Origin: Echinarachnius parma
Lineage: Eukaryota > Echinodermata > Echinoidea > Clypeasteroida > Echinarachniidae
Direction: 5' to 3'
Length of the DNA stretch: 64,000 nucleotides
NCBI GenBank assembly: GCA_037951105.1
Contig: JBAMJV010009766.1
Span: 1 to 64,000 of the forward strand
Shown here: piece by piece, positions 1,603 to 56,996 of the stretch
Numbering within the stretch: the stretch's first letter is position 1
Layout of the letters: each line of letters starts with the position of its first letter
Made by a program: the position numbers and the translations under genes
The notes under the pieces: model-generated
What the model was told of the DNA's origin: nothing
Database searches by the model: none
What the model saw: the letters and a program-made list of their open reading frames with translations, nothing else

Positions 1603-1905
1603 ATGAGCGATACTTGGGCTGTTACCATGACAGTATAAATGATCGCGTCCTCCCTGACAAGCCATGTATTACCAGTCCATCAGTGTGTATCTACAATGAC
1701 TTGACGATTGACAAGTGCATCGATATCTGCAGAAACGCCAGCTATGATCTCGCTGGAGTCGAGCTTGGTGAAGAATGCTTCTGTGGAGCTGCTGGCACGG
1801 ACTACAGTCGAATTGGCAAACTGGGAGATGACCGATGTAATTACGCATGCTTTGGAGACAATCAACAGAGTTGCGGCGGAATTTGGGCCATCGCTGTTTT
1901 TAATC
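1603..1905 (+). CDS. Gene A exon: WSC domain
   Basis: Phase 1-1 exon of 101 codons, bounded by 'tttttag' and C|gtgagt. It reads DERYLGCY..., with ten cysteines including [10 protein letters not shown] and the closing SCGG. CRNAS holds an N-glycosylation sequon (NAS). WSC domains are small extracellular carbohydrate-binding or stress-sensing modules. Confidence 0.85.
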
Positions 1906-4690
1906 GTGAGTTTATATAGCTGTTCAGGTGTTAATTGTAAATTTGGGGGTCCGCTCGCTAGTCATAAGGACCGCTTATTGTTTGTTTGGTCGACATGGCA
2001 AACTGAGAGATAACAACTGTTATCATCTATGTACAGGAACCAATCAACAGAGTTGTGGTGGAGCAGGGACCATCGCAGTTTTTGATCGTGAGTTTATACA
2101 TGATTGTCTATAATTGTAAATTTGTAAGTAAGGCTTTTATTCGAATTACGAAAGCGTAATGCTAACCCTAACCCCAATCCTAACCCTAGACTTCAAAACT
2201 GGTCCTATCCCCCGCACTCGCTACGGAAAACGCGCCTTTTCAATTACTACACCAACTCTCTGGAATAACCTACCCGTCCACATCCGTGCCTCCACTACAC
2301 TAGATTCATTCAAGACTGAATTCAAGACCCACTTATTTAGATCGATTTAAGTACATGTTTACAATATAAACTATATCGTCTCATCAAAATTGAATGTCTT
2401 AATTGTATAATTATTATTATTTTTAAAAATTAAATATCAATATTTTGTAAAATTACTATTACTTGTAACAGCGCTTAGAAACCCTGTATTACGCGCTTTA
2501 TAAATGCAAGCTTTTATTATTATTATTATTTATTATAATGACATATTTTAAAAATTGAATTTGCTGTCATGTCTCCAGTTTCGTAAACAAGTTCTGTAAA
2601 GTTAGGGACAATACCCGTTACCAAGGGTGAATTTTAAAGACAGTTTTAGTTAGTGTTATGCGATATTCATATTATTTGAGTTCATATACAGGTATTATTC
2701 TATATTATTTAGCTGATTATAATTCATCTATTTATTTAATTGTTTATTTGTTCATGCCTTTTTTGGGTAAAATGCAAGGTAGGTTACCTCATATAAAATG
2801 CTTTAAATGTATGCGTCCTGTATTACACATACTAGAAAAAAAAAGCAATTGACATGATAAATATTAATATTTAGCACAAATAAAGATTACGGAATACATT
2901 TTATATACATTTCTTTTGAAAATAATTCAGTTTTGGAAAGTCATACAATGTTAAGAATGTAAATTGCCACAAAGTGGATTTCGTTGTACTACATACGACT
3001 GACAAACCCCATTGAGCTGAAATAACTGAATAGTAATCGGGAAGCCTGGTTTATGTCTTCTAAAGTGGAAATACAGGGTAGGTAAAATGCTTTACTATGC
3101 ACCCTCTATGCATATATTAGAATAAATTCAATTGACATAATAAATAATCATATTTAGCACAAATAATGATTATGCAATGCATTTTACATTATTTTGCTTT
3201 AAAAACAATTTAGCTTCGGAAAGTTCCTGTATTATTTCCTTTCCTTTTGAAACTGTTATAGTTCTTTCAACAACAACAACCAGCCCTGCTCCCCCAGCTC
3301 CCTCGACAAGTCCGATGCAGGAGACTACACTGATATACGGAACATCCGACAGTACGACCAGAGCATCACCAACGCCTGAAACAAAGACTACTCTAACCAC
3401 CTCGATTCCCTGTAAGTGACAATGCTTCTCAATGGCGGGTAAGAAGTGATCTTCGTTTCGACGTGCTTTCAAATGACAGGAGTAAATAATAATTACAAAA
3501 TACCAATAATGCGATGACTGCCAGAGTGGCTACATATTTCCACTCCCATGCAAATACATATTGTGTCATTATAACTCGTACTCTTTTGTAATCGAACACA
3601 ACGACAAAATCAAAACCAATAATGGTTCAGAAAAATATAAAAACGCAATCATGATAAAGGAGGAGGTAACATTATCAGAAGAAGTAGAAGAAAAAGAAGA
3701 ACAAAATCACGGTCGAACATGGCGAAGTAGAATTATAATGAGATATATTGCATTATAATACAATAACAATTTGTTTGTCTATATATTTTTAATTCCGTAA
3801 GTGGCAGTGGGGGCTGCATTTGGCGGAGCATTCTTCATGTTAGTTCTACTCCTCACCATTTATAGAATCGTCGTTTGTAAACGCAGGTGAGAGGTTCGTG
3901 TAATAGAAATATTACCTATCAGGCAATGTTGTACGTTTCACTGCCAACCCATTATGTTAATCTCCGTAGAACACCCCCTTCAGTAGAATGCATTGTAACC
4001 CCGACCATTCTTTCCATTTCACTCTTGTCCCTGGTATGTTTCGATCGTGCTAGCCCATCATACATGTCATATTTCGATCTTCCCCCATCCCTCTCTCTCT
4101 CCCTTCCCCTATCTCCCCTCCTCTCTGACCCTCATCAGCTGAAATTCACATTAATACAGTTAAATAAATCATACTAGGAATATACTTTATATATTGATAA
4201 TGGTTGTTTGTACATATATTAGGCATTCAGTTCATTGTTTTGTCATTATTTATACCCAAGTCAATTCTAAAAACAAATAACATTGCATACTTTAATTCTG
4301 TTAACTTTTTTTTCCTGTTTTAGAAGAAACGCCAAATCACCTGCCAAGGGTGACACTGAGTTTGAGATGGACAACGATGCATACACGCTTCCACAACATG
4401 GAAGCACTGACAAGGCGGACAACGATGGTCATACCTACATGACCGTCGCTGCAGGTGCGGCGAACCGGACAGAGGAGGTAACCGAGCCAGGGGTGATGTC
4501 TCATACATATCAAGACGTCGCTGCTACGGCTGAAGAGAGTTCTCCCGATGCTTATTATTTGACGCCGGATGTGCCCCAGCCCCAGTCAAGCAACGACGTC
4601 CAGGGTTATCTGAACCCGATTCAACAGACCTCGCAAGCCACACCACAAATCGATGATGACTATCAATATGCTTATTACGAGGGTATGTAG
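1603..4690 (+). CDS. Gene A (5'-partial): WSC-domain, transmembrane, tyrosine-tail receptor
   Basis: Four exons are visible: 1603-1905 (WSC), 3262-3411 or 3262-3438 (stalk), 3802-3886 (transmembrane) and 4324-4690 (tail, stop at 4688). By analogy with genes B-D the signal peptide and SRCR exons should lie left of position 1; none is present in 1-1602. The predicted product is a single-pass surface receptor whose tail could recruit SH2 proteins. Two oddities stand out. The stalk exon has an in-frame TGA at 3417-3419 if the family-standard donor at 3439 is used. A consensus donor GTAAGT at 3412-3417 ends the exon before that stop in the same phase. A partial WSC duplicate sits downstream in intron 4. 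Family membership is firm from the tail and WSC match; whether the gene makes a membrane or a soluble protein depends on donor choice. Confidence 0.82.
1987..2087 (+). pseudogene. Partial duplicate of the WSC exon 3' half
   Basis: Inside intron 4 of gene A, 1987-2087 repeats the 3' third of the WSC exon (the part from 'GKLGDDRC' on). It reads GKLRDNNCYHLCTGTNQQSC and ends at the same kind of donor, C|gtgagt at 2088. It has no obvious acceptor at its 5' side and lacks the first seven cysteines, so it cannot make a full domain. It is still open in frame, so the duplication may be fairly recent. Confidence 0.7.
2159..2540 (+). mobile_element. 5'-truncated LINE 3' end
   Basis: Positions 2196-2350 read RYGKRAFSITTPTLWNNLP, then FKTEFKTHLF and a stop. 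This is the conserved C-terminal end of CR1/L2-like LINE ORF2 proteins (AFS..P.LWN.LP...FK..LKTHLF). The 3' UTR ends with 'cgctttataaatgcaag' and an ATT repeat at about 2513-2532. It lies in intron 4 of gene A, sense orientation, and is inactive. Confidence 0.75.
3262..3438 (+). CDS. Gene A exon: Thr/Ser/Pro stalk with stop/new-donor conflict
   Basis: Acceptor 'gttatag' at 3261. The exon encodes a mucin-like stalk rich in T, S and P. The family donor GCG G|gtaag is at 3438/3439 (phase 1), but TGA at 3417-3419 interrupts that version. An alternative donor T|GTAAGT at 3411/3412 is also phase 1, gives a 50-codon exon without the stop, and deletes the short Cys motif that genes B and C encode as QCQC. 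Confidence 0.75.
3640..3725. repeat. Purine-rich (A/G) tract in gene A intron 5
   Basis: An almost pure A/G stretch (gaagaagtagaagaaaaaga and similar) lies upstream of the transmembrane exon. Genes B (25930-26040) and C (46438-46530) have (GAA)n in the same intron and D (55640-55680) a weaker version, so this is the interrupted form of a shared tract. Confidence 0.55.
3802..3886 (+). CDS. Gene A exon: transmembrane segment
   Basis: A phase 1-2 exon encoding VAVGAAFGGAFFMLVLLL and then a basic KRR stop-transfer. The glycine-rich start (GAAFGG) could support helix packing. Acceptor 'cgtaag', donor AG|gtgag. Confidence 0.85.
4324..4690 (+). CDS. Gene A exon: tyrosine-rich cytoplasmic tail
   Basis: Last exon (phase 2 start), 122 residues with the split R. 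Tyrosine motifs in order: AYTLP, TYMTV, TYQDV, AYYLTP, GYLNP, then YQYAYYEGM at the C-terminus. YLNP fits YxN (Grb2-type SH2 ligand) and YEGM fits YxxM (PI3K p85-type). These are motif matches only. Confidence 0.87.
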
Positions 4691-4710
4691 AAGTTTTGTG
4701 TCAATCTAGA

Positions 4711-17971: not shown

Positions 17972-19150
17972 TCGTGTGTGAGTTATGTGCACGTTGTGTG
18001 ACGTCATGGCACATACTTTTATTTTAAAATAAATATAGTGTCAAATGTGATTTAGTGTGTACTGGTCGTAATCATTCACATGTCTTTTACTTGACATATT
18101 GTAATTCACGTCGTGTCAACCTTACACGTGGTAGATAACGTAACATATCGTTTCAAACCTCTTGTTTGTTTTGACGTCATGCCATATGATTATGTTATTG
18201 TCATGATAATATAGGTTTTCCCGGTCAAATTCGTCACAACAGCAGCCAAAGTGACGATTCAATCATTTAATTTATTCGACCATTCATCCATACCTTAGGA
18301 GCATGATAACTATCTTTATTAACGATAACACACGAGAGTTATTGATTAGCAAATACATTTTACGAGTATTTCTCGAGGTTTTCCCTTTGATATGAAATGG
18401 GTTAAACATCTGTAGAACTTGTTTTCTGTTTTTTCTTCACCAATAAAGTGAGAAATATCAGGAATTGCATTAATGACCTTAATGTTGATGCATCTGTTCT
18501 CGGGATGTAAATACAATGTGTAAATACGTCCACCTGTTCACTATACCGTAATAATGTGGGTCTCATACTGCACCCCTACTTCCTCTCTCAACCCCCCCCC
18601 CCCCTCCCCCCCCCCAAAAAAAAATAATAAAAAAATAAAAAAATAAAATTAAAACCGACAGGCGAACATGATTGTTCATTCAAGTATAGTGAATGAAGAA
18701 TTATTGTATGTGTTGGTAAATTGTTATGTCTTCGGTCTGAAGATGACAACTGTGGTTCCTTTTTTAGTTTAAAAAGAAAATGAAATGAACTATCCCGAAT
18801 CTATATTGGTATCAGATCCTTAGCATGTAAATACTACAATAACATTTTCAGTCCCATTCGGGTTCGTGTCAAGTTTAAATAGTTTCTGACAATCACGAGC
18901 TTTCAAACTAAGGGGTTTCAGGGACGAATACCAGCATAAGGGCCTTCTATAGCTCAGCTGGTAGAGCACCGGTCAAGCACGGTGTCCCCTCCCCTCACGG
19001 GGTCCTTTGTCCCCCTGCCCTCCCCTCTCTCAACGTTGCCCCCTTCTTGACCACTGACACCTGCCCCGCCGCCGAACCACATCCGGGAAGGAAATTATTA
19101 AAATGCACTTCATTTCCTCAAAATGTAGCTTAATTGGTATTGGGTATGTT
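17972..19150. repeat. Duplicated flank block with tRNA-like repeat head
   Basis: Homologous to 61220-62355. The order is the same: 'gtgtgacgtcatg' near 17997, a poly-C/poly-A patch at 18593-18645, 'gcgaacatgattgttcat', the tRNA-like leader with TAGCTCAGCTGGTAGAGCAC at about 18949-18968, then the 'cacggggtcctttgtcccc' segment. 19085-19150 then matches the 5' flank of the other genes ('ttcctcaaaatgtagctta'). Confidence 0.6.
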
Positions 19151-19385: not shown

Positions 19386-19479
19386 ATGGCTGCAGCAGGA
19401 ATACGAGTTACGGTGGTATTTTGGGGAATTATGATCTTGCTTTCTCTACTTATTGGTTCGGTGCAACCTGAATTGATAG
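19386..19479 (+). CDS. Gene B exon 1: signal peptide
   Basis: MAAAGIRVTVVFWGIMILLS and onward to QPELI; a hydrophobic core then a short polar end. Donor ATAG|gtaagt, phase 1. The start is the ATG aligned with those of genes C and D. Confidence 0.85.
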
Positions 19480-22400
19480 GTAAGTCATCCTGAGATTAAT
19501 ATGTTTTGTATAAGCCTAGCTACCATTGTGTATATTTAAAACGCTCTTAATTGTACGGGTATTTATCAAAGTGATCTAACTTCGTTGACATGTGTAAAAA
19601 GTGATGAATGGTTAATACAATGTATATTGTTGTTATCCAATATATCCACTGGGTTTTTTGTGCAAATTTCAATTTAAAGTTCGTATAGGCCGAGTAATAA
19701 GCATCATGCAAAGCGATATTCTCTTACTCATTTCCACTGACTTTGTACATGGTTAAGACTATCCAGTGGATAGTTTAACATCTAAACATTTCAATCGTAA
19801 ATATCATTTTAACGGAAAGGAAATTACAAACAAAAAAACGAAACCTGCCCCATGCTTCTATTGTTTATTTGAAAGCAACAAGGTATGATGGAACCGGTAA
19901 ATTGGATTTTGAGGTTTGGACAATGTTAGTATATAGATTCCTTTTAAAGGAATATTGCAGTTTAAGTCAAATTTAATTGTAACAACTAAAACTTGTATGG
20001 TATCATAACTAAAAACAAATATGACTCAACGAAGCTCGAATGGTATAGAAAAAAATAAATAACTTGAGGCTTGTTTGTATTGTAAAAGGCAGCCGTCAAC
20101 ACATTAGGGCACCCTCTAGACACCTGACAGTTTCAACCATTAATTAAAACAATTGTTAGGGTGATGTTTGGCTAAGGTAATGATTCAATAAAGATATCGT
20201 TAAAACAAAATCATGATTCTTCTTTTGCAAATGTATATAGGCATTATATATATTATCTTAAATGATTTTTATAAATGTTGGGGCCCAAGATATATTCCAA
20301 TCGAAAATGTTAATGGATATTCCAGTCTTAAAAATCAATTGCCTCTTCAAAAAATACATTTAGTTCATTGTATTACCTCACAGATAAATCACTTATTGCA
20401 GCGTCCTCTCTACAACGAACTGTATTATCCATTTAATTCTTTATAAAAGTATGTATTAATTACATCAATCATCTTACATATTATAGAGTAAAAATATAAA
20501 TAAATGTACACATCTATATTTCAGATATTCGTCTGGTTGGAGGTACAACACGGTATGAAGGGACGGTGGAGGTAACAGAAGACGGGGTCACGTGGTACAC
20601 CACGTGTGGATCATCCATCAGCTTTCTGGACGCAGCCGTAATATGCTCCCATCTGGGGTTCACCGGCACTACTCGAGGTCTAACAAGCTCTCCGTTTGGA
20701 AATAGCCTTTTGGAAATAACCGAACGTGTAATACTCAAATGTGCTTCGGGTAAGTTATCTTTTTTATAGATCCGATGTTATTCCGTTGCAGCACTGGACA
20801 CAAGTTTGATAACGTAATATTTTCTTGTTTATAATCATATTTGTTTGGCCTTTTGTTTTTATAAATGTGACGTTCGCGGGGTCGATTCCGGAGGGAAGCC
20901 CGGCTATTATAGCCCGGCTATTATAGGCATATAATAGGCCTACTGCGTGTCGGAGTAGTTTAGATGTTGCCATGTAATTGCATATCATTATAATTAATAA
21001 AGGAAACAGTTACTATTGCTATGTGTGTGTATAAATTGATGTCAAAGCATTTCGCAAGAAAAGTTATGTTTTTCACATTTACACAATTTTATAGAATCAA
21101 TTCGATTAGGAATTATTGCATAATAACAATTTCCCCCAAACAATCAGTGCACTAGCGACTAAGGCGGCACGCGACGAGCCTCCCCCGATCATCAGGTCCG
21201 GCCTGTTCTTTGTTCTACTTGTGTTTTGACTTGAATAGCCGGTAATATAGGTTTTCCCGCTCAATGTTACACTTTTATCAATCGAATTCATTAAAGGGAT
21301 AGTTCAGTTTTGGTAGGGCGCTGCATGTCACAATTTTCTTGTGAGATAATGAACAACTCAGTGTCGAATTTTAGAGAACATGCAATTTTAATGGCAGAAT
21401 AAACTTTATTTGGTCAAAATCGACCCAGAAATGTTTGAAATATCAATAGATATATCTGAAATTATAATTATTTGGGGCCCAAATAACATAATTAGATAAT
21501 GCACCTTTTCAAACAATTTCAAAAGCGTTTTTTAATAGTTGTTGAAGATCTCTTTATGTAATCATTATTTCAATAAAACATCACATGCATAATTTTGTTT
21601 TAATGGCTCTTTTTTAAAATGATAACTGGCTTTTTACTTAGTCGTTTGTAATTTTGTATATACCTTTCGAGCATGGTGGAGTTATAACTATTAGTTCATA
21701 ATGTTACTGTCCAGGTTTGGTTACTTAAGTTTAGCATTACCAAAACTGTACTACCCATTTAAGGGTCTTGCAAATCACGCATTGCCGCGTAATCGTTGGT
21801 ATCGATCTTTCAAAGTCCAAAAATGTGCGAACAAATTCCTGTACAAGTACAAACACTTCCCACTTTTTTCGAAGTGAAATCTTTTAAAAATCTGAAAAAA
21901 ATGCATAATAACAATAATGACCATACTTCTAAAGTGATATTTTAAACATCAATTTCGAACATTTCTCCACGTGGGAAGGGGTAAACCCCCTTCCACAACC
22001 TCCCCCAAATAAGTATATGCACGGACAATGTGAGCGTATTTGAGTCTGGTGTTTGTGTAAGTTCGATTGTGTTTGTATACTACATATATAGCGGTCTAAT
22101 CACGATGATTTAAGTCATGATTTCTTTAATTTAGTATTATCAAATTTCTATCCAAGGTATGCACCAGATTGCATAATTTCGAGTGAAAATTTGCAAAAGC
22201 TCCCTACCGTGGGAGCCCCCTTCAGGGGCTTCGCGCCCTCGGGCTTGGTCGCTCCGCTCCCTCGCAGTTGTGCCCCCCCCCCCCCCCCCAATCCGTTGAC
22301 TCTCGCTACGCCACTGCTTGCAGAAGTGTTGGCTACGTCACTGCACCTCAAGAGTAAGCTTGTACAGACAGATATGTGTCAGAGTAATGTTTGGCGTACA

Positions 22401-27114: not shown

Positions 27115-27147
<33 letters not shown>

Positions 27148-40700: not shown

Positions 40701-40791
40701 ATGGCGGTAGCAGGTAAAAATGATTTGAGACTTCTGGTGATTATGATTTTGCTTTCTTTACTCATTAGTTCCGTGCAACCGGAATTGATTG
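40701..40791 (+). CDS. Gene C exon 1: signal peptide
   Basis: MAVAGKNDLRLLVIMILLSL to QPELI; Kozak-like gccATGG; donor ATTG|gtaagt, phase 1. Confidence 0.84.
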
Positions 40792-43700
40792 GTAAGTAAA
40801 TAATATCATCATGAGATAATTTTTCAATTTCGAATATTTCATTTTGCTGTACATGCTTTCCATTGTGTATATCTAACATGGCTGTTATATTACAGCTATA
40901 CAGTCTAATATGCAATTCTGGATAATCACATCAATTATATTACACATTTAAATGGGATCTAGCAACATAATACAATTCCTCAAAACCTTCTTGGAAATCT
41001 AGCGGTTCTCAAATGCCTCATTGCATTAGAATTAGCGAGAGAAACAAAACACGTATTTCGGCTTTCCAATTTCTCTTCCGTTATAAAGATATGTACGATT
41101 GAAGGTTCAGATTTGTAATTATTTACTGGTTTATAATTGTGTACAAAGTCAGTATAATGACGCAGCTTACACTTTGAATTTGTGCTCATTACTCAGCCAT
41201 ATAACATCAATTTAATATAAATTCTAACATTACTTATGGAACATATCAGATCAAAAACAATTATTTTATCAACCATTCATCACTTTTTTGCATATGTCAA
41301 GAAAGTTATTTGATCTCTTTGATTATAATGAAGCATTATGGATAATTACATCATTCATCTAGCACAAGTTAAATTAAAAAACAATAAACATATATAGACA
41401 TCTAAATTTCAGACGTTCGTCTGATTGGGGGTCCAACAATCTATGAAGGGACACTGGAGGTGACAGAAGACGGGGTCACGTGGTACACTACGTGTGGATC
41501 ATCCATCGGCTTTCTGGACGCAGAAGTAGTATGCTCCCACCTTGGGTTCAGCGGCACTAATCGACATCTGGAAAACACTCCGTTTTGCAGTATCCGAGCC
41601 CAAAGTGTAACGCTCGGTTGTGCAACAGGTTATTTGTATAGTCTCCCATTAAGTTATAGTTTTTTTTCGGATTGTCTTAATTCATGTGAGGGTCGTGGAT
41701 TAAATTATTGAGGGTAGCTCTGCTACTGCATTGCCAGTCGGACTATAATATTTATATTTTGTCGCCATACAACTTCATCGCACTATTATTTATAAGCGAA
41801 CAACCGAAATAGCAAACAAAAAATTAAAAATTACCCTTGTAAAATCTCTTATTTTAGGCCACCGGAAAAGTCATGCTTCAAAATATAATCACTTAAAGTA
41901 CGACACATATAAAATAACGTTTCCAACTTACAGTGGTCCATTATAGTGATATATTAACTTCACATTGTTTCCAAAAGTGACCTCAATCTTACACCAGCAG
42001 GAAAACTGTTTACAACTGAAAGTTTTTGTTAGATATCCCCAATCATTCGCGCGATAATTCGGACACTTTTGACTAAAATCGAAATGCTTTTTGAAATTAG
42101 CAAAACCAAAGTTCATTTTTATTCTTCATAGCGGGAATGTGAAGTGTAAAAGGTCCAAGAGATTTTGGTTGAATTTAACTTCATAGATTTTTTCAAAAGT
42201 GGAAGTGGAGACTGTAATCATAATCCAATGTAATACTGTACCATTTTGATACCGCAATGATTTGGCATTCGTAGAGAAAATCGCTTATGTCGTTCAGATT
42301 CGTTGTATCGTATCTGTTTTGTCAAAAAAGTCGTTTCGCATCGTAATGAAACAGTGAAAGCGGAGCCAACACCGTTTTGTTTTGTTGTTGTAATAAGATA
42401 TCGTGTTAGCATGGGAAATAAACAAAAGAATCAATCTTAATATGTTAGCCCCTAGCTCTCTAGTGATGCATTATTCTCATATTTTGTGATTTTCAACGAA
42501 ATTCTACTTTAAGCTTGTCAAAAGAGTCGCCGCGCAAACACGATTTTATCAAACCCTTGATTAGTTGTCGTAGCGAATTCGTGTTAAGTCATTTTAACTT
42601 CTTTGCAATTCGATCTGACTCGTATCGCTTCATCGCAAATATCGTTGCTTTCCGTTCTGGTTCGTATAAAGCTACATTTATGTCGTTGAGATTTGAGGTG
42701 AACTGGAATGAATCAGTACGACGCAGAACGATGTAGGATGTCACAAAACGCGGCATATCATGACTGCGCGGAAAACATGAAGTAGACCGATAATTTATAT
42801 TCGATTCAAGTCAGGTCGTCCTGAAATCGTATGTTCTCCTTCGCCGATCAATAACCACTGCCAAAATCATGCCCCAGTCACACTTTCCCGAAAAGCATTC
42901 CTTCTAGGGCAACGTATTCTTATTTTGTGAATGAAATGGAGATATAATATACGGGGGGGTAATTTTGTGGCCATGGTATTAACGTGGCGATACGTGGAAC
43001 TACGAAAACAATAGCCATATCTTAGTAGAATTAAGAGATGTAGCTCTGCAATTCGCTGTAAAGAACGCCGCTATGGGACCGCAACCTTTTTTTTTTCTAT
43101 AACGGGTGTTCTACCGCGATTATTAAAAGAAGATCAAACTAACTAGTTGAGTAACGAGGAAGAACAACTATTCGTTCTGCGTCGCCGTCTTATTCTTTAA
43201 AATCCAGTGTTTAACCGTGACAAAATCGAGTTGATTCGTTCTCCTTACCCGTTGAGATTCGTTTCAGTTCGCCTTAAAAACCATGAGTAAGGGACCGGGG
43301 CTTAAGATCCTTTTAATCTTTTGAGGTGTAAAAGAATTGCACACACCTTAAAGGGCAATGCAACTCTAGAATTTATCCTTCTGTATACATCGTAATATGT
43401 TTGTTTATTGTGCGTAACATTACCCCGACTCAGCATTCTGCTTTAAAAGAAATATGTGAAAACACTATCGGGTACACCACTATTCACGCGAACGCTGGAA
43501 GCCGCCATTATTAGGTGTGTGCGGACTACGGTCAATGATATGCATTACTGCATTTCAATAACACCAATTCAAACCATTGTCTGAATACTTGTAGAGGCTT
43601 TGACGAGTCTCCAAATCGGTGAATAGCTTTTTGTTCGGCCCTAAGCAGATACGTCAGAGTTTGCAAAGCATGTCGGGTAATTACAAGAACATGGCCGCTC

Positions 43701-46700
43701 CCATCATCTTTTGCCGCCGTAAGAATTTGTAAAATGTGGGTATGTTCACATAAGGATTTCATGGAATCCAGTAGGCCAAAATTGCCAAGTATGTATACAA
43801 TTAAATGTCTGTTCACCCTCTAAATTATAATAATAGCCGAAAGCCATAGTTTCATTGTCCTTTAAGCCTTTAGAAAAAGGGCCTACTTCTTTACAAATTA
43901 TTTATTGTATCGACGTATTTATTTTACCCTTGCATCCCAGATGATCGCAACATTAGTTCCTGCTCATACAGCCATGGATGTTCGTCAGGATCCGCATTGG
44001 GTGCAGTAGTATGTCATGGTATACTTGTTTATCTTTTAAGCTTTTATTTGTATAAAATGTTATTTAATGTGTATTTTCTTATTGTTCATTAATGGGAGTA
44101 GACGAGCAAAACAATTTTACTTGCCCACTAGAACTGCAGCCATGACGGCAACATTTCTGCATATTGTATAACTTATACATTATGATAATAATAATAATGC
44201 ATTTATATAACGCATTTCCCATATCAAATGTTCAAAAGCGCTGTTCAGGCTCAAGTTTTAGAAAGAGGTGAGTTTTCAATTGTTCTTTAAAAAGATTGAA
44301 TGAAGCTTGGTTGCGGAGGATCAGAGGTAGTTTAATACAAAGGTTGGGTACTGCGGAAGCAAAGGCGTTATTCCTAAGTGTGGGAAGCATCTTGGCAGTT
44401 GGATGGTTCAGTAGGGTGCCTTGTGCGGGGTTATTGAATTCATTGTTTATGCCAACCATATTTATTATATGTTTTATGATAATAATACAATTGATTGCTA
44501 AGCCGGTACTGATGGCGCATTTTTGTGCTTTGTTATGAATAATAAAATTTAATTGTTAAATCAAGCTAGAAACTAATGATGATAAATAATAATTAAACTT
44601 TATATAATCCATAAACATGTATAAATATATTGTGTTTATTTACAAAGATACATTTACTAGAGAATAACTTTATGCTAATTAACCTATTTGTAATATAATA
44701 ATCATAATTTTGCAGAACATGATTTTATCTGGTACTTCTGTGATTTTCGCGTAAATTATTATATTCTCCAAAAATTGATCTAAAAATGGTGAATCATAAT
44801 AAAGATATTTTGTATTATAATGTCACAACATAATTTGCAGATGAGCGATACTTGGGCTGCTACAGTGACAGTAACCACGATCGCGTCCTTCCCGGCACGC
44901 CATGTCGTTCATCAACGTGCACGTACAGTGACTTGACGATCGACAAGTGCATCAATCTCTGCAGGGACGCCAACTATGATCTCGCTGGACTCGAAGTTGG
45001 TAACGAATGTTTCTGTGGTGCTGCTGGTACAGACTACAGTCGAATTGGCAAACTGGGAGATGACCGATGTTATTACCTATGCTTTGGAGACAATCAACAG
45101 AGTTGCGGCGGAATTGGGGCCATCGCTGTTTTTAATCGTGAGTTTCTATAGCTGTACAGGTGTTAATTGTAAATTTGGGGGTCCGCTCGCTAGTCATAAG
45201 GACCGCTATTCATAACGTGTAATTTCCTATACCTCATGCCTTTATGAATAGTGACCCCCTTTTCGTTTTATGAATAGCGGTCCTTCACGTATAGGAAGTT
45301 ACACGTTATGATTAGCGGTCCTTATGACTAGTGGTCATTATGACTAGCGGTCCTTATGACTAGCGGTCCTTATGACTAGCGAGGTTACCCCTACATTTGT
45401 TGGCAAGATTTTATCAAAAATAACGAATTTGTAATAGCCATCCTTATGATGAGAAATATTTTGGTTTGACAATAATATGGGCAATGTTTAAAAGGCAAGC
45501 ATAGTGCCTAACCATAGCCCTAACCATAACCCTAACCCTAACCCTATCTACGCCCAGAGAAGCTCTGGGGGAAATATTAACAGTGTAGGCATATTTCTAT
45601 TCAAATTCAAATTCAAATTTTTACTTAAAACTTGTGAAGTTCTTCCAACAACAACAACTACAACAACAACAACAGCAACAACCAGCTCAGCTCCCTCGAC
45701 AAATCCGATGCAGGAGACTACACAGAAGACGCACGCTTCATCTCACAGTGTGACTATTGTACCATCAACGACGGAAGCCGAGACTAGTCTCAGTACCGCG
45801 ATCCCCTTTCAGTGTCAATGTTATTCCATGGCGGGTAAGATTGCATGTTCTTTTTGTACATATGTCGAGTTTCAAGTGTATATAATATTTAAAGGGACTT
45901 AGTAACATTGTCCAAATCCTCAAAATTTAATTTTAATTCTAGCGGTTCCCTCATACTGTTGTATTCGTATTAACAATAAAATCATGGGACAGGTTTCGGT
46001 TTTTCAAATTTCCCTTTCGTTACAAAGATATGTACGATCAAAGCATTCAGATAAGAAAAACTCCGGGCGAGTTTTTCTTCCGTGTACAATGTGAGTGCAG
46101 TGAGTTAGTGTATATCACTTTGCATTTTCGCTCATTACTTCGCCATGCAACGTCCATTTGACTTGATATTTTCACACAATACCCTGTGGACATATTATGA
46201 GTTAACAACAATATACATTGCATCAACCATTCATCAGTTTTTGCATATGTCAACAAAATTACTAAGTCCCTTTAAGGACTGGAGTGGCAGCAATTTTCAA
46301 CTCAATACTTATTGTGTCAGTATTAATCATTCGTGCTTGATAATCCAACACAACGACAACATGAAATCATATTATGGTAAACCAAATAATAACACAATAA
46401 TGGTAAATAAAGAATAATGGAATAAAGAGGAGGATGAAAAGAAGAAGAAGAAGAAGAAGAAGAAGAAGAAGAAGAAGAAGAAGAAGAAGAAGAAGAAGAA
46501 CAAGAAGAACAAGAACAAGAAGAAGAAGGAATAGTGAAATATTTACAATCAGAATAATCAAATTCTTCATGAAATGGCAAAGTACATTATTATAATAACA
46601 TAATATTTAGTTTTGTCTATATTTTTCAATTTCGTAGGTGTAATAGTGGGGGCTGCCTTTGGCGGAGCATTCGTCATGCTAATTCTACTCCTCGTCATTC

Positions 46701-47486
46701 ATGGAATCATTATCGTTTGGAAACGCAGGTGAGAGGGCGTCTATAGTCGATAATAAACATATTGCGTATCACCTTTTTAAACCAAATTTCACTGCCTACT
46801 CATCGTTGTATCTCTCTTTAGATCATCCACTTTGGTACTGCAGGGGACGCATGTTAACCGGACACTCCCCATTTGAATATTTCAATTGCATTTAAAGATT
46901 TCATCAACCCTTCTTGTATGTTTTGGTGGTGCGGGCTATCCCATCATATTTCGATCTTTCTTACACCTCAAAGTTTAGCCTTACCCAAATATGTACTACC
47001 CCTTTAAGTATAATACTAGGACAAGACAATGAATCAAATATTCATCATGGCTGTTTTCATCCGTTTTTCATAAATCAGGACTTCATTAAATTGTAATGCC
47101 AGTATTTATGCACAAGTCATCTCTCAAAACATAACATACTTGAATTGCGTCTTATTTACCGATTTAGAATAAACCCCAAATCACCTGCTAAGGGTGACTC
47201 TCAGTTGGAGATGGACAATGACGCATACACACTTCCACAAGCTGGAAGGACTGATAAGGGGGATAGCGATGGCCATACCTACATGACCGTCACTGCGGGT
47301 GCGGGGAACCGGTCAGAGGAGGTAACCAAGCAAGGGGCGATGTCTCATACATATCAGGACGTCGCTTCGCCGGCGAAAGAGAGTGATACAAATGCGCTCT
47401 ATTTGACGCCGGATGTGCCCCAATCACAAACAGGGAGCGACGCCCACGCCTACGCGTGCCATGTGTATGCGACGCAACAGGAATAG
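40701..47486 (+). CDS. Gene C: SRCR-WSC transmembrane receptor with truncated tail, 428 aa
   Basis: Exons 40701-40791, 41413-41628, 43941-44018, 44841-45137, 45640-45834, 46638-46728, 47168-47486 (1287 nt, in frame). Residues 1-30 signal peptide, 31-128 SRCR, 129-227 WSC, 228-292 stalk with a (Thr)9 run, 293-322 membrane segment (VWKRR stop-transfer), 323-428 tail. The tail keeps YTLP, YMTV, YQDV and YLTP but ends with HVYATQQE, so the YLNP and YYEGM motifs are gone. After the stop, the same frame still holds eroded similarity (HFHEDDEQ, stop, HHVYED). Other divergences: an extra cysteine in SRCR (PFCS), loss of the WSC NAS sequon (CRDANYDL), a weak exon 2 donor (G|gttatt), and no conserved 3' UTR block. 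It is probably expressed with altered signalling, or is decaying. Confidence 0.82.
40951..41325. mobile_element. Decayed TTAAAGGGAT-family MITE, inverted (gene C intron 1)
   Basis: Inverted family landmarks: 'gggatctagcaaca', 'aatttctcttccgttataaa', 'caaccattcatcactttttt'. The orientation is opposite to that in gene B intron 1, so the two are independent insertions. Confidence 0.6.
41413..41628 (+). CDS. Gene C exon 2: SRCR domain, first half
   Basis: DVRLIGGPTIYEGTLEV, cysteines at [13 protein letters not shown] and LGC plus an extra one at PFCS. The donor is ACAG|gttatt, weaker than the gtaagt of B and D. Reading through adds about 27 codons and a stop at 41709-41711. Confidence 0.8.
41712..43530. 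other. Gene C intron 2, unclassified
   Basis: Mixed AT-rich DNA. 42230-42730 and 43100-43300 contain scattered 'gattcgtt' and 'tcgtatc' motifs, suggesting a decayed repeat, but no terminal repeats or coding frame could be supported. Confidence 0.35.
43532..43830 (-). pseudogene. Coding-like segment antisense in gene C intron 2
   Basis: The minus-strand 94-codon frame (43816-43532) is helix-rich and reads like globular protein, for example HTHILQILTAAKDDGSGHVL, ALQTLTYLLRAEQKAIHRFG and FRQWFELVLL. Just upstream on that strand is 'ttataatttag', a plausible splice acceptor. It may be a captured exon or a retrocopy of an armadillo/HEAT-like gene. I cannot name the family and no neighbouring exon is seen. 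Confidence 0.35.
43941..44018 (+). CDS. Gene C exon 3: SRCR domain, second half
   Basis: DDRNISSCSYSHGC, then LGAVVCH; acceptor 'catcccag', donor G|gtatac. Phase 1-1. Confidence 0.8.
44180..44570 (-). mobile_element. Antisense LINE 3' end (gene C intron 3)
   Basis: Minus-strand frame 44459-44232 contains LRNNAFASAVPNLCIKLPLI and FKEQLKTHLFLKL, a CR1/L2-like ORF2 terminus. The 3' UTR continues toward 44184 with 'gcgttatataaatgc' and ATT repeats on the minus strand. Truncated and inactive. Confidence 0.75.
44841..45137 (+). CDS. Gene C exon 4: WSC domain
   Basis: 99 codons, [19 protein letters not shown] and on; ten cysteines. CRDANYDLAG replaces [10 protein letters not shown], so the NAS sequon is lost. 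Acceptor 'tttgcag', donor C|gtgagt. Confidence 0.86.
45175..45395. repeat. Clustered inverted/direct repeat of TAGCGGTCCTTATGAC
   Basis: 'gctagtcataaggaccgcta' at about 45189 is the complement of 'tagcggtccttatgactagc', repeated three to four times at 45313-45382. An inner pair ('ataacgtgtaatttcctata' / 'tataggaagttacacgttat') makes a longer hairpin. Gene A intron 4 has a single half (1943-1974). A foldback origin is likely. Confidence 0.65.
45640..45834 (+). CDS. Gene C exon 5: Thr-rich stalk
   Basis: 65 codons, with PTTTTTTTTTATTSSAPS near the start (microsatellite ACA/ACT) and IPFQCQCYSMAG at the end. Acceptor 'tgtgaag', donor G|gtaag, phase 1-1. Confidence 0.8.
45893..46271. mobile_element. 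TTAAAGGGAT-family MITE, inverted, intact (gene C intron 5)
   Basis: 379 bp, TTAA at 45889-45892 and 46272-46275; reverse orientation of 31443-31821 with high identity. Confidence 0.8.
46438..46530. repeat. (GAA)n tract (gene C intron 5)
   Basis: About 20 near-perfect GAA units followed by GAACAA variants, about 110 bp upstream of the transmembrane exon; same intron position as in gene B. Confidence 0.88.
46638..46728 (+). CDS. Gene C exon 6: transmembrane segment
   Basis: GVIVGAAFGGAFVMLILLLV, then IVWKRR. Phase 1-2, acceptor 'cgtag', donor AG|gtgag. Confidence 0.84.
47168..47486 (+). CDS. Gene C exon 7: shortened tyrosine tail
   Basis: 106 residues with the split R. Motifs AYTLPQ, TYMTV, TYQDV, LYLTPDV, then a divergent end HAYACHVYATQQE. 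The tail is 16-17 residues shorter than in B and D and lacks YLNP and YEGM. Confidence 0.83.
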
Positions 47487-47688: not shown

Positions 47689-47689
47689 G

Positions 47690-50550: not shown

Positions 50551-50554
50551 TTTA

Positions 50555-50709: not shown

Positions 50710-50803
50710 ATGGCGGTAGCAGGAACAAAATCTTTTGGACTGTCTGTGATTATGATCATCTTGATTTGTGTACTCATTAGTTCCGTTCAACCAGAATTGA
50801 TTG
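50710..50803 (+). CDS. Gene D exon 1: signal peptide
   Basis: [20 protein letters not shown] to QPELI; Kozak-like accATGG; donor ATTG|gtaagt. Confidence 0.85.
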
Positions 50804-53800
50804 GTAAGTAAGCATAAGATTATTCTGAAATTTCAATTTATTTCATTTTACTGTGCAGGCCATAGTGTTAATCTAACATACCCTCAATCCCCTCACCAGT
50901 GGCGTAGACAGGTTCTTACACCTGGGGGATGATTTGCCGTTCACCGGACCAAGAACAATGTTTCGAGACCAAGACAATTGCTTAAAAGTCCAATCAGTGG
51001 GGGGGGGGGGGGGGGGGGGGGTAGATGTGAAGATGGTCGTGACCAGGCGGGCCGAAAGCAGTTTTGGATTTTTTTGGGGGGTGGAGGGGGGGGGGCAAAA
51101 CCTATGGGGGCTCAGGATTGTGTGTGTGTATATAGGGGCTCATGCCCAACCACACTCACAGTGCTGCCAACTCTGAGCCAGATGTGAGAGTGAGACATTG
51201 CAAGGATCGAAGCGACCAAGCCCGAGGGAGCGAAGTGACTGAGCGGGGGGAGGGTGCGGGAGGGGGGTGTCCCCCTCCCACGCTAGGGAGATTTTGCATT
51301 TTTGGACTTGAAATTGTGCATTCTGGTGCTTACCTATATAGATAGGAAATTCGGGCTTAACATTGACAGTATCTGGGAAAGCGTGTCATGATTTGATCGA
51401 CCAGAAATTTTAAACATATTTTCACGAAGAAAACAAATAATTGAAACATATGCACCCCAACACAAATATTGTATTTAGCATCATACACAGTTCCAACATC
51501 ACCATATGCCACATTATGTATGATCCAACAACTTAGCCAAGAATGAGTCCCGAGGGGTGAAGCTACCGAGGGCTGGGGCAGGGCCAATTAGAGAGGGTTT
51601 GGGATGGGGTATCCCCCTCCCACGGAGAAGATTTTGCATTTATGTATATATACTTGAAATGGTGCAATTTGGTGCACATCACACAAGGAGCCAGAGCAAT
51701 GCCAGCCTACACTGGAACTACGTTGCCCGGTATACATAAAAAAATACTCACCCCTGACCATACGCAAGTTACACAACAAACTGAGATAATCTGTTCGCGC
51801 GCGAAGAGCGCAGCAAAAATTGAAAGTTGATGTATAAAATTACCTTTTTAAAGTTAGAATTAAAAAGTATTAGCTCATAAAAACTTTTTTCTTTTTCTTT
51901 CCCACTCGTATACAGCTACACACACACACAAAATATCCTTCCCTAAAACCTGGGGGGGGGGGGATGATTGTACATGTCATCCCCCCCACCTTGTGAGGTG
52001 GGGGGGATGCATCCCCCTCACCCCCCCCCCCCCCCCCCGTTGTCTACGCCCCTGCCCCTCACTATATATTGTGCATGTTTCAACTATAAATGTTCATGCT
52101 TTTCATCAGTATTTTGCATCACAACTCAACTATAAATTGATGCAGATTCTCAACTCAACTCAACTATACATTCATTCTAAATACCATTCTGGACAATACG
52201 CATCACGTATATTGCACATTTTAAAGTAAGAATAAAACATATCTATATTTCAGATGTTCGTCTGGTTGGAGGTTCAACACGCTATGAAGGGACTGTGGAG
52301 GTGACAGAAGACGGGGTCACGTGGTACACCGTGTGTGGATCATCCATCGGCTTTACGGACGCAGGAGTAGTATGCTCCCACCTTGGGTTCAGCGGCTTTA
52401 ATCGAGGTCTATCAAACTCCCCATTCGGGAGTAACCAGACCCAAAGTGTAACGCTCGGTTGTACTTCGGGTAAGTTGACTTTCCCAGTATTTGCCTTGTG
52501 ATTCCGTTGCAAATCTGGACAAAGATACGCCTTGTTACTCCTCTTACTCGTCTTACAAGATTTCAGCAATCATTTGTCCTAAATTAAATTCATGTATTCA
52601 ATTTAATAGTAAGGCGATAAGTAGAAAGTAAAAGAGTAAATGGGTTCTTGATTTGTCATAGTTTTGGGGATCCCTTTATACGTCTTTATGCTCTGACCGC
52701 AATTTTTTGCTGCTAATTGTTGTAATTTTCTAAGACATATTGTATTAATTTACATTCTGTTTGATTTTACATTTAATTATTAGATAGTAGTATAAAGATG
52801 ATGAGTGAAGAGTAAATAGGTTGTATTTCCTTCATAGTTTGTTTTTATCATTTACATGTTTTTTGAGCGCACTTGTGTGCTCATGTACAGCTAATTGTTG
52901 AAATCTTGGAAGACATTTTGTTTGAATTTACATTTTTTATGTCACATTTAATTATTATACACAAGTTTTTCTTTAGATACTATAAATTTATATTTGTATT
53001 TTGCGTTGTTATATATTAATGCATGTATGATTACATATGTATGTTGTGCACAAGGCACTTTAGTCCTCGGACTTTATTTTATGTTGTATGTGTCGTTAAA
53101 AGCCGATATATCTATCAATCTAACTATGGTACGATTCTTGTGAATGGTATTTGATATTTTCAACGATACTGAACAATATTTACCTATAAAAAAGAGTGGT
53201 AATTCATGTCAGATCGCGGCAAGTATGCAAATTCGGATACTATGGACGATGGACGTATCCGAATCAGACATTGTTATACTACAATCCGGTACGCTTTCAA
53301 TTCAATTATATACCTTCATGATACTAAGTGAGGGAGACATTTGGAAAATCAAAACCCACCCATTTTAGTATTCATAAGCCAAACAAAAGAAGTGTAAAAG
53401 CTCCAATTTACTTTGGTTCAATTTGACAAAGTTAATTGATCACTTTAATGCAAACCTTTTCTGGTTATATTTGTCTCATCAGATTAGTGTGTGATGTAGA
53501 TGAACGTATAGTACAAGTGAGGCATTTAGATGTATTACTTTATATAATGTATTTATATTTTATTCATATCTATTTTACCCTTGCAATTCAGGTGATAATT
53601 ATATTAGTTCATGCCCCTACACTCCTTGTTCGTCAGGATCGGCAGTTGGTGCAGTAGTATGTTATGGTATGTTTACACCATTTTATAAAACGTAAATAAA
53701 TATTAATTTAGTTCTGAAAACCATGGAGACATGAGTTAAAACATAATCTATGTTTCCTCCAGGTCTTCGGCGAATGTGTATCTCATTTTCCACATCATAG

Positions 53801-56245
53801 AACTCATAGTTCGGGCTTGAACTGTTTAGGCCTATCATGCATTTATGATAATAATACATTTTACTGCACAAACATATATAAAGGACTTCGTGTGTGCTAT
53901 GATATGAATAATGAAATAACATGTTCGCTTATCCTCCGTGAGTAAGGACTAAGGAAAACGATTCTAAATATGTGGGAAAAACATTCATAATTCTGCTCAG
54001 ATATTGGGGATTTCGCAGTGGTACTATACAAGAAAAACCTTTCGATTTTGAACATCCAAGTTACAAATTGCCATTAACAACTGTTGCGTGATATTTATCA
54101 TGATCTTTTATACATGACATATATTATGGGCTGTTAAAATGGTCTTGCCAAAACAGGCACATGTACTGTATATCTGGCGATGTAAGAAGAAGATGTGATT
54201 AATGTAAATAATTTCATTTATGCTGGAACATACTATTATGAATATGCAGATGAGAGATACTTGGGCTGCTACGTTGACGATGGGCATGGAAATCGTGTCC
54301 TCCCTTGCATGCCATGTACAACCAGTTTATCAGCGTGTACGTACAGTGACTTGACGATCGACAAGTGCATCGCTCTTTGCAGGAACGCCAGCTATGATCT
54401 CGCTGGAGTCCAGTATGGTGGGGAATGCTGGTGTGGAGCTGCAGACACGGACTACAGTCGACTTGGAAGACTGGGAGATGACCGATGTCACTTCCAATGT
54501 ACAGGAAACAAATACCAGAGTTGCGGCGGATCAGATGCCATTGCAGTTTTTAATCGTGAGTTTATACACGATTGTCTACAATTGTAAATGTGTTGCTAAA
54601 ATTGTATTACAATTGCAATAAGTTAATGCCCATCTTTCTAATGACAACTTCAACAAATTGATTTTTACTGTTATCAGGTCAAATTGCGATTTAGGCCAAG
54701 TTAATCTTGTTTTGGACATAATTTGTGGTGGACTAGCAACAATGGTTTTCAGTCGTTAGTTAAAAGAGAATTACGGTTGTAAGCATTACATAATAATATT
54801 CCAGTTATTCGGGTACATACTAATGTTACTCGTTGTAGTTTATCTGGTCATAATGCATGATATGTTTATCCGTTGCCATCGAGATTTTCTAATTATCAAA
54901 CTGAAAACTTGTCAGTATGGCACACGTTGCTTTCACAGGCAATATGTAAGTGTGTTCTATTTAGAATTCGGACGTTGTACATGTAACGTATAGGATGTAT
55001 CTACATCCAGCGAAATGGTGTTGGCAAACTGCTGTTTGATTTTATGTTCTTTTGTAATACTTGTATAGTTCTTCCATCACCAACAAAAACAACAACACCA
55101 CCACAAACAACATCAACCAGCGCATCTTCTTCGACATTTCAGATGCAGGAGACTACACTGACATATGGGTCATCCGAAAATACGACCGTTGCGTCATCAA
55201 CGCCAGCAACCAAAACTAGTTTTACCACTTCAATTCCTCGTCAGTTCCAATGCTCTTCAATGGCGGGTAAGAAAGGTTCTGTTTCTTTCAATAAATACAT
55301 CATTATCGCCGTTGTTAAAAACTACATGAATGCGAAAATGAATAATACCAACCAATTGCCTCCGCTAGGGCAACACTCCGGCAAGATTTAGTCCATGAAG
55401 ACATAATTAGTAAATGACCGAGTAGGCATTCAGGAAAAAACAGGTCAGTGTCCACACTTATCATCAGCAGCCAGGGTGTAGTTGACAATACAGTATAGAA
55501 GAACAGTTGACAATTAAACATTTACAGAAGAAAATATGTTTATTTATTCACATCATACATGATGAACTATGTCAAATAAAACCGTCATCAAACACAAAGA
55601 TGAACAAATTATGAAGACGCAATAATGGTTAAGTTTATTGAAGAACATGAAGAAGGAGATAAGAATAAAAATAAAGAATATAATTATTTGTGATTAACAA
55701 TAATTACCTTGTCAATTTTGCCGATCTATATTAAAACAAGATCCGATATTTGTTCCCATGTCCCAGTTGCGTACGTGGTGGGTGGAGTAGTGGGAGCATT
55801 CATCATGCTGATTATCCTCCTCACCATTCATGCCATAGTCATCATCTGTAAGCGCAGGTGAGACATCCAGACAGTATCAGTATTCCATAAAGTCAACAGG
55901 CTACCCCATTTTTCCCCCACGCTTGATCCCATCTTCCGTAGGAATCCTGGTCCCTATTTTGTTTAATATAAAGACAAATGCCCCGTTGCATGAAAAGATG
56001 TAATCGATATTTCAGTTTTATTTTTTATTTTAGTTTGCAGCTGTTCAATCTATGGTAACATATCTGCAAGATAAACCCTTTCTCTCTCGCTCTATCATTA
56101 TCGTTTATAGGAATCGTTGTCCCCCCTTTTTGTTTGCTAGTGGCTCATCTCTATCTTGCACCAGATATCTAAATATTATGTAAAAGACGCCTTACCCGAC
56201 CCCTTAGGCTCAGGCTAAGGCTTGGGCTCGGGCTCGGGTTCGGGT

Positions 56246-56335
<90 letters not shown>

Positions 56336-56996
56336 CTGGGCTCAGGCTCAGAACCCACCCATCAGAATTGACAGATGTGTTTCTTCCTTTAACTCTTCTT
56401 AATCTTCCCTCGTACACAGATCACCTCTATGTAAATTGCATAATGCAATAACAGAGATAAGCACAATGAAATATTAAACTGTAAAATGCAAATCGTTTTT
56501 TTCAACGTCATGACATACGTTAAATTGCAATTTTCTTATCTTTAATGTTTATAAATTATAAAATCAGTTTTCAAATTATATGAAATTACACACATAACAT
56601 TACTTCTTTTATTTGTATTGACATAGAAATACCGACAAATCCCCTGCCAAGGGTGACACTGAGTTGGAGATGGACAACGATGCATACACACTCCCACAGC
56701 ATGGAAGCAGTGACAAGGGGGTTAACGATGGGCATACCTACATGACCGTCGCTGCGGGTACGGGGAACCGGACAGAGGAGGTAACCAAGCCAGGGGTGAT
56801 GTCTCCTACATATCTCGACGGCGCGGCTACGACGGCGGAAGAGAGTTCTCCAGACGCTTATTATTTGACGCCGGATGTACGCCAGCCCCAGTCAGGCAAC
56901 GACGTCGGGAGTTATTTGAATCCGATTAAACAGACGTCGCAAGCCACACCACAAATCGATGAAGACTATCAATATGCTTATTACGAGGGTATGTAG
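50710..56996 (+). CDS. Gene D: SRCR-WSC transmembrane receptor with full tyrosine tail, 449 aa
   Basis: Exons 50710-50803, 52254-52469, 53592-53666, 54250-54555, 55069-55266, 55767-55857, 56627-56996 (1350 nt, in frame). Residues 1-31 signal peptide, 32-128 SRCR with six cysteines, 129-230 WSC with an extra cysteine (LPCMPC), 231-296 the longest Thr/Ser stalk (66 residues) ending [10 protein letters not shown] (first Cys of QCQC replaced by F), 297-326 the membrane segment ([19 protein letters not shown]), 327-449 the tail. Tail motifs: YTLP, YMTV, YLDG (changed third motif), YYLTP, YLNP, YYEGM. It is the most complete and least disturbed member. Role as for gene B: inferred surface recognition and SH2-mediated signalling. 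Confidence 0.88.
50897..52054. mobile_element. hAT-like non-autonomous element (gene D intron 1)
   Basis: Ends CAGTGGCGTAGACA and TGTCTACGCCCCTG, with a perfect 8-bp target duplication CCCCTCAC at 50889-50896 and 52055-52062. Long poly-G (50999-51020) and poly-C (52019-52038) runs lie inside the ends, and internal 'gaagcgaccaagcccgaggg' sequences match 22150-22318. No transposase. Confidence 0.85.
52254..52469 (+). CDS. Gene D exon 2: SRCR domain, first half
   Basis: [17 protein letters not shown]; cysteines at [13 protein letters not shown] and LGC. Acceptor 'tttcag', donor G|gtaagt. Confidence 0.87.
53592..53666 (+). CDS. Gene D exon 3: SRCR domain, second half
   Basis: [13 protein letters not shown], then VGAVVCY; one codon shorter than in B and C. 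Phase 1-1. Confidence 0.82.
54250..54555 (+). CDS. Gene D exon 4: WSC domain
   Basis: 102 codons, [20 protein letters not shown] and on; eleven cysteines; NAS sequon kept. Phase 1-1, donor C|gtgagt. Confidence 0.87.
55069..55266 (+). CDS. Gene D exon 5: long Thr/Ser/Pro stalk
   Basis: 66 codons, opening [20 protein letters not shown]; likely O-glycosylated by composition. Acceptor 'gtatag', donor GCGG|gtaag. Confidence 0.82.
55767..55857 (+). CDS. Gene D exon 6: transmembrane segment
   Basis: [20 protein letters not shown], then IICKRR. Phase 1-2, acceptor 'cccag', donor AG|gtgag. Confidence 0.85.
56217..56345. repeat. (CTCGGG)n hexamer repeat (gene D intron 6)
   Basis: About 18-20 units of GGGCTC, imperfect at both edges. 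It creates a poly(Ser-Pro) open frame on the minus strand that I do not call a gene. Confidence 0.9.
56627..56996 (+). CDS. Gene D exon 7: tyrosine-rich tail
   Basis: 123 residues with the split R; AYTLPQ, TYMTV, TYLDG, AYYLTP, SYLNP and YQYAYYEGM. Acceptor 'acatag'. Confidence 0.88.

Follow-up and report, generated by a model that had tools for sequence, protein, structure and literature searches.

The stretch of DNA analysed here (the window, 64,000 nucleotides of Echinarachnius parma at the beginning of contig C9747) raises the question of what is made by an array of genes in which SRCR and WSC domains stand above a stalk, a transmembrane segment and a tyrosine-rich tail. We built exon models of these genes, compared them with their paralogues in genome-wide searches of the species' own assembly (1.2 Gb), and weighed what their architecture suggests about function. 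This led us to the view that the four window genes probably belong to a large sea urchin family of single-pass surface receptors, forming a mosaic repertoire, with tails that would signal via SH2 proteins. The COX1 gene of the assembly, on contig C14600, reads AAA as Asn, ATA as Ile, AGA as Ser and TGA as Trp at positions known for their conservation, which we interpret as the echinoderm code. Among the best 120 of 7773 matches, in a collection clustered at 90%, the top named sequences are those of the sea urchins Echinocrepis and Prionocidaris, with a cidarid cluster, at 95%, and named starfish and sea cucumbers reach at most 92%; a sponge origin was dropped on this evidence.

The exon anatomy of the array is clear. 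Hand-built, checked models of g2, g3 and g4 contain seven exons each—signal peptide, SRCR a, SRCR b, WSC, Thr/Ser stalk, transmembrane and tyrosine-rich tail, in that order (Table 1)—which join in frame without internal stops into predicted proteins of 423, 428 and 449 residues, respectively. Every intron in these models is bordered AG...GT, and the phase is 1 throughout, except for phase 2 at the border preceding the tail; these junctions are the ones we predict to be spliced in the cell. All four genes are on the plus strand (g1, 1603-4690, cut at its 5' end; g2, 19386-30204; g3, 40701-47486; g4, 50710-56996). In g1, only the WSC, stalk, transmembrane and tail exons are visible, because the contig begins at window base 1, which leaves the SRCR and signal-peptide exons out of sight. 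The preliminary description, in which four plus-strand paralogs joined in frame into the full set of domains, is thus accurate for g2, g3 and g4 and, at this contig edge, from WSC to tail for g1. The domain search that it had proposed gave the expected families, the Pfam cut-off for WSC being passed by all four joined proteins and that for SRCR (26.1 bits) by all three that reach that far (g2-g4, 34.8-42.1 bits). Hydropathy profiles, used in place of a dedicated signal-peptide or transmembrane predictor, have two peaks in g2-g4, the first N-terminal and the second just ahead of the tail, and a single peak in g1, consistent with a predicted type I topology. The stalks consist of 35-46% Thr+Ser in the four genes, and the tail of g3 has a changed, shorter C terminus that lacks the last tyrosine motifs.

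Table 1. Exons of the array in the window and the evidence for each.
Feature	Position	Strand	Evidence
g1 WSC exon	1603..1905	+	model; Pfam WSC 58.3 bits
g1 second, partial WSC copy (C-terminal part), most like g2	1985..2089	+	tblastn; self-BLAST
g1 Thr/Ser stalk exon, ending at new donor T|gtaagtg before TGA	3262..3411	+	model
g1 transmembrane exon	3802..3886	+	model; KD peak 2.3
g1 tyrosine-tail exon + stop	4324..4690	+	model; 86% to g4 tail
g2 signal-peptide exon	19386..19479	+	model; KD peak 2.43 at residue 8; relatives in g3, g4
g2 SRCR exon a	20525..20749	+	model; Pfam SRCR 38.3 bits
g2 SRCR exon b	22490..22567	+	model; tblastn
g2 WSC exon	24469..24777	+	model; Pfam 49.9 bits
g2 stalk exon	25607..25723	+	model
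g2 transmembrane exon	26113..26194	+	model; tblastn
g2 tyrosine-tail exon + stop	29838..30204	+	model; tblastn
g3 signal-peptide exon	40701..40791	+	model; self-BLAST
g3 SRCR exon a	41413..41628	+	model; Pfam SRCR 34.8 bits
g3 SRCR exon b	43941..44018	+	model; tblastn
g3 WSC exon	44841..45137	+	model; Pfam 52.5 bits
g3 stalk exon	45640..45834	+	model
g3 transmembrane exon	46638..46728	+	model; KD 2.79
g3 tail exon, C terminus altered, shorter	47168..47486	+	model; tail alignment
g4 signal-peptide exon	50710..50803	+	model; self-BLAST
g4 SRCR exon a	52254..52469	+	model; Pfam SRCR 42.1 bits
g4 SRCR exon b	53592..53666	+	model; tblastn
g4 WSC exon	54250..54555	+	model; Pfam 53.5 bits; predicted fold matches Kremen WSC
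g4 stalk exon, Thr+Ser 46%	55069..55266	+	model; composition
g4 transmembrane exon	55767..55857	+	model; hydropathy
g4 tyrosine-tail exon + stop, 10 Tyr	56627..56996	+	model

Several repeats accompany the array. A 61-bp tandem repeat (1350-1553) lies just upstream of the g1 WSC exon, and two mutually inverted 15-bp minisatellites (26548-26969 and 28993-29580) lie within the last g2 intron. Between g2 and g3, a reverse-transcriptase frame (32270-34150, plus strand; Pfam RVT_1, 117.7 bits) marks a probable non-LTR element. Self-BLAST also revealed a dispersed short repeat inside and beside the array (31439-31825, 45889-46275, 57466-57761 and 62605-62984), its copies ~88-95% alike and in both orientations. 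The two copies of a 1.1 kb repeat (17969-19087 and 61215-62354) are 78% alike, one of them ~300 bases 5' of the g2 signal-peptide exon. Just past the window, a further copy of the receptor genes (C9747:66967-67850; L030) is represented by a transmembrane and a tail exon, with a TAA inside the tail.

Domain identity is equally firm. The SRCR domain, spread over exons a and b, has six near-invariant cysteines (32, 33 and 32 of 33 rows in exon a; 11, 10 and 11 of 11 in exon b), which is the pattern of group A rather than the eight-cysteine pattern of group B, the group of CD5 and CD6. The phase-1 intron that divides it in g2, g3 and g4 is in keeping with group A domains, which are typically split over exons. 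In the WSC domain, a CGG is conserved in 14 of 14 aligned rows, and the nearest solved relative by sequence is Kremen (E 3.2e-17). An AlphaFold model of the WSC exon matches the fold of Kremen and Wsc1, its middling pLDDT (69.9) restricting its use to fold identity. Because two extra WSC cysteines (columns 24 and 34) are present or absent together—both present in 30 of 33 copies, both absent in three—they suggest an added disulfide. Variation among the WSC copies falls in columns 10-14, 22 and 32-35. A Pfam scan of the four window proteins found no LRR family and no kinase.

Genome-wide, the four genes belong to a much larger set. Searched against its own genome, the g4 SRCR exon yields 64 rows at or above 63 bits, a line that we chose ourselves, followed by other SRCR genes (best 150 of 1629 candidates scored). 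Of these 64 SRCR exons, 45 are followed on their own strand by a WSC exon no more than 15 kb away, against 0.06 predicted by random scatter at the same density; 14 have a WSC upstream on the same strand, and for five the downstream WSC is on the opposite strand. This count used 103 of the 150 scored WSC rows, the other 47, compared by eye, being on contigs with no family SRCR row, except for C8183:27071, which is upstream of the SRCR exon there; a second check covered most of those contigs. The seven weakest of the 64 rows (47-51% identity), none of which has a WSC downstream within 15 kb, may fall outside the family. Tail-exon matches number 59, of which 54 were used and five are second copies or tail fragments; for 33 of the 54, the first listed exon met within 15 kb on the upstream side is WSC, and for 19 none of the listed exons is present there. 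Totals are lower bounds for both domains, since the WSC matches are the best 150 of 276 candidates scored and the SRCR matches the best 150 of 1629, and exon counts exceed gene counts because near-identical contigs (C8731/C13224, C2015/C892) are probably alleles. As a separate observation, the at least 150 WSC matches and 1629 SRCR candidates amount to a very large SRCR/WSC load beyond the tyrosine-tailed family.

The complete series of seven exons is found again, in the same order, in two copies on C8731 and on C10456 and C8898. Six of the seven are in order on C3263, with no signal-peptide exon found in the stretch read, and the stretches read on C1473, C7181 and C3810 contain partial sets. 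Among paralogues, the acceptor is AG in 34 of 34 SRCR a exons and 33 of 33 WSC exons, and the donor is GT in 28 of 28 testable SRCR a exons (six more were not testable) and 32 of 33 WSC exons. For sets that exclude rows with stops or below coverage limits, as do those for column conservation, mean dN over mean dS is 0.41-0.60 in the seven exon types. The family exons are therefore coding and under constraint, which we call mild because the ratio climbs to 0.49-0.87, by exon type, when only close pairs are considered. These genome-wide copies bear out the earlier proposal of an expanded tandem family of surface SRCR-WSC proteins, for which hydropathy suggests type I topology. Outside the species, the SRCR-WSC part found no relatives among 658 candidates in the protein collection searched, a result that we do not take as absence in other animals. 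A search not confined to this part gave two fungal WSC proteins, and Thr/Ser-rich words from the stalk probably dominated it.

A dN/dS below 1 in every exon type would also be expected of receptors that serve adhesion or self-recognition, on coelomocytes or gametes for instance, and that bind a host polymer and use the tail to signal contact. This alternative draws further on the closeness of the WSC to that of Kremen, a developmental co-receptor, and on the fact that SRCR proteins have also been implicated in adhesion, according to the accessible text of PMC13409769. We consider it rather unlikely, since dozens of tandem mosaic copies, together with truncated members, would be more typical of repertoires for variable ligands.

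The same constraint bears on a second alternative, namely that the array is made up of decaying, functionless copies. With the usual stalk donor, the g1 stalk would run into an in-frame TGA; immediately 5' of this TGA is a GTAAGTG donor that keeps phase 1. Among the seven copies that fit our search pattern, to which this comparison is limited, donor and stop are found together in three (g1, L011 and L018), the donor is found in L015 with the stop absent, and neither is found in L016, L020 and L024. An order in which the donor came first and the stop later fits with the new donor being used, and the reading of g1 as a pseudogene was dropped because the stop sits behind an in-phase donor common to three copies. 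Decay would account for the TGA in the old g1 stalk frame, the changed C terminus of g3 and the TAA in the tail after g4 (C9747:67494-67850), yet it is opposed by the dN/dS values, by the conservation of cysteines, tyrosines and splice sites, and by that shared g1 donor, making it a very improbable explanation.

A further finding is that exons of the same genes can diverge unevenly, by several-fold in some pairs. Between C10456a and C8898, the synonymous difference falls from 0.39 in SRCR a to 0.06 in the tail (p=3.9e-6); between C2170a and C8183b, it rises from 0.08 in SRCR a to 0.37 in WSC (p=1.7e-4); and between g1 and C8731a, it falls from 0.29 in WSC to 0.06 in the tail (p=4.5e-4). These pairs were selected for having one close exon, 32 of ~517 possible exon comparisons were tested, and one of the genes combines exons from a near-identical contig pair that are probable alleles. 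With full correction for ~517 comparisons, only C10456a-C8898 survives at synonymous sites; when all sites are used, 15 of the 32 tested comparisons survive. In several close pairs the exons do not differ (e.g., g4-C8183b, synonymous p=1). SRCR a and WSC distances correlate over 29 genes (Mantel r 0.53) and the nearest neighbour agrees in six of these, a disagreement on which we do not rely because short exons are noisy. Self-BLAST provides a complementary picture, the g1 WSC exon and its flank being 87% like g3, whereas the WSC fragment that comes next is closest to g2. Such a g1-type partial fragment recurs in C7181, where a whole WSC exon is flanked by two WSC fragments. The simplest reading of these patterns is exon exchange or gene conversion between paralogues. 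Uneven exon divergence and an alternative donor that removes a stop indicate how the repertoire may change.

Within the tails, conservation is greatest at the tyrosines. In the 34 tails that were read or lie in the window (of the 59 rows), the majority residue has a mean share of 0.87 at Tyr columns and 0.74 at other columns. Tails are ~100-124 residues long, contain six to eleven Tyr each, and have conserved motifs AYTLP, HTYxxV/I/L, YLxP, YLN and, in part, YEGM. YxxP occurs 70 times in the 34 tails, where 1000 shuffles gave 23 on average and never more than 39, and HxYxx[VIL] is present in 32 tails, YxN in 23 and YxxM in 14, these counts being inflated because paralogues are not independent. 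YxxP is an SH2 docking setting for CRK or PLC-gamma and YxN for GRB2. The canonical ITIM ([ILVS]xYxx[ILV]) and ITSM (TxYxx[VI]) are found in none of the 34 tails and ITAM-like spacing in just one, and a standard immunoreceptor route through classical ITIM/ITAM signalling was dropped on this motif scan. Elsewhere in the genome, a tandemly repeated tyrosine block occurs within one open frame of 235-256 residues (C581:3672-4283, C2170:69682-70293 and C3810:125672-126283).

Motif number also bears on whether these proteins are scavengers or decoys, in which the tail would direct endocytosis or degradation and would signal only secondarily. Polyanion uptake is frequent among SRCR proteins, and some tails, such as that of g3, are short; six to eleven Tyr in YxxP, YxN and YxxM settings are, however, more than a single endocytic motif needs, and we regard this alternative as improbable.

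A new aspect of these tails is that related ones appear under different heads. For five tails on contigs with no WSC row, we read 4-8 kb upstream, and none of these stretches has an SRCR or WSC match of note. Two of them (C5228, L093; C9511, L096) have an fn3 domain over the Pfam cut-off, a stalk, and a transmembrane exon nearly identical to that of the SRCR-WSC genes. A third (C400, L094) has Ig-like and EGF exons, a stalk and a transmembrane segment; its EGF_2 is over the Pfam cut-off, its Ig is recognised by eye and by a Tie2 match, and the Ig-EGF part matches Tie2 in PDB (E 3.3e-12). The last two are weaker: in C2697, there is an Ig-like frame by eye and an fn3 just under the cut-off (22.9 vs 25), and in C4657, an FN3-like half was recognised by eye but has no match in Pfam; no transmembrane exon was found upstream in either. 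A tree of 34 tails, with head labels assigned by hand and seven heads unknown, has three groups (supports 100/100, 100/100 and 84/95). The first unites C5228 and C9511 with three WSC-headed tails; the second unites C2697 and C4657, its sole FN3/Ig heads, with two WSC-headed tails; and the third contains 13 SRCR-WSC tails and C400. WSC heads in the first two groups were assigned by coordinates only (a WSC 2-8 kb upstream on the same strand).

The tail clades thus appear to mix SRCR-WSC with FN3/Ig/EGF heads, the latter firm in two clades of three. It is quite possible, to our mind a little short of an even prospect, that one stalk-transmembrane-tail phosphotyrosine cassette serves two unrelated heads in at least two, and probably three, clades, heads and tails reassorting to give matched receptors with a common output and different ligands. 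An extension of our preferred explanation, not exclusive of it, is that SRCR-WSC and Tie-like Ig/EGF/FN3 receptors sharing this cassette form a paired or complementary set—one recognising, for example, a microbial ligand and the other a self or damage ligand. We see the case for such a set as evenly balanced. Three clear heads (fn3 in C5228 and C9511; EGF_2 and the Tie2 match in C400) and the presence of both kinds of head within tail clades argue for it, but C2697 and C4657 are weak where they alone represent FN3/Ig heads, the WSC heads of both divergent clades are placed by coordinates, and Ig was called partly by eye.

Taken together, these results point to a family of surface receptors that would most likely work as follows. 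An ectodomain of one six-cysteine SRCR and one WSC, atop a Thr/Ser-rich stalk, a predicted transmembrane helix and a tail, would bind surface polymers through both domains jointly, the putative ligands being microbial or host glycans or proteins. The yeast Wsc1 domain has no apparent glycan pocket, in the accessible text of PMC9024836, and we count this against a glycan-binding reading. Clustering of the receptor would lead to phosphorylation of the tail by a Src-family kinase, and the phosphorylated tail would dock SH2 proteins that switch a cellular response, of either possible sign, for instance phagocytosis or the restraint of it. Diversity would arise in the repertoire by tandem duplication and by exon exchange or gene conversion among paralogues, exchange being eased because phase-1 introns are common. 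A putative immune role of the tyrosine-tailed SRCR-WSC family is plausible. The conserved tyrosine tail offers a handle, through phosphotyrosine and SH2 partners, on how the hundreds of sea urchin SRCR genes, whose signalling is mostly uncharacterised, could act. A shared tail under two heads, if true, would give invertebrates a counterpart of the paired receptors of leukocytes.

Comparison with known systems highlights both similarities and differences. In the accessible text of PMC10855680, Strongylocentrotus purpuratus has 357-359 SRCR genes, tandem, expanded and mostly six-cysteine, with 36 occurrences of WSC (8.96%) in the tally of their domains. The window genes are alike in all these respects, and the preliminary statement that SRCR and WSC come together in no described family was thus too strong. 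PMC10855680 does not use the words tyrosine, ITAM or ITIM, and its accessible part gives domain counts and shows neither a stalk-transmembrane-tail cassette nor a Tie-like partner. The accessible parts of the literature found on SRCR with WSC, in a search that left most subscription journals outside its scope, contain no tyrosine-tailed SRCR-WSC family. What appears new here is this tyrosine-tailed family, with FN3 or Ig/EGF heads over related tails; the co-occurrence of SRCR and WSC is already published.

With CD5 and CD6, the window genes share an SRCR ectodomain and a tyrosine-bearing tail, and we know of no WSC in either. The preliminary description had put CD5 and CD6 in group A; the accessible texts of PMC10855680 and PMC2906472 place them in group B, whereas the window genes have one six-cysteine domain on two exons. 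Homology to CD5/CD6 was dropped, the window SRCR being six-cysteine and not group B. Likeness to Tie1/Tie2 is confined to the Ig-EGF head of C400; there is no kinase here, the tail exon ending in a stop, and the window genes carry SRCR-WSC heads. Kremen 1/2 are nearest for the WSC by sequence and modelled fold, and their accessible description gives Kringle, WSC and CUB domains where the window genes have SRCR and WSC. To our knowledge, Kremen has neither an SRCR nor a repeated tyrosine tail. Fungal Wsc sensors resemble the window genes in their Ser/Thr-rich stalk and, as far as we know, lack an SRCR and a tyrosine-motif tail. They are also alike in carrying WSC on a membrane-spanning protein, a sensor in the accessible text of PMC9024836.

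The nearest tested precedent that we found for the SRCR-WSC tail is, by analogy, amphioxus BbLcLRR, described in the accessible part of PMC8211107. It has an LRR head in place of SRCR, and is otherwise alike in having WSC, one transmembrane segment and tail tyrosines, found there in DDYATV, HDYSEV and HDYDDP, the second of which resembles HTYMTV here and has the HxYxx[VIL] form present in 32 of the 34 tails. These motifs were read as ITIMs, the tail was linked to the Src-family kinase Lck, and in Jurkat cells NF-kB was inhibited by the wild-type receptor but not by the 3YF mutant (PMC8211107). Binding of SHP1, SHP2 and SHIP1 on stimulation was seen for BbLcLRR (PMC8211107).
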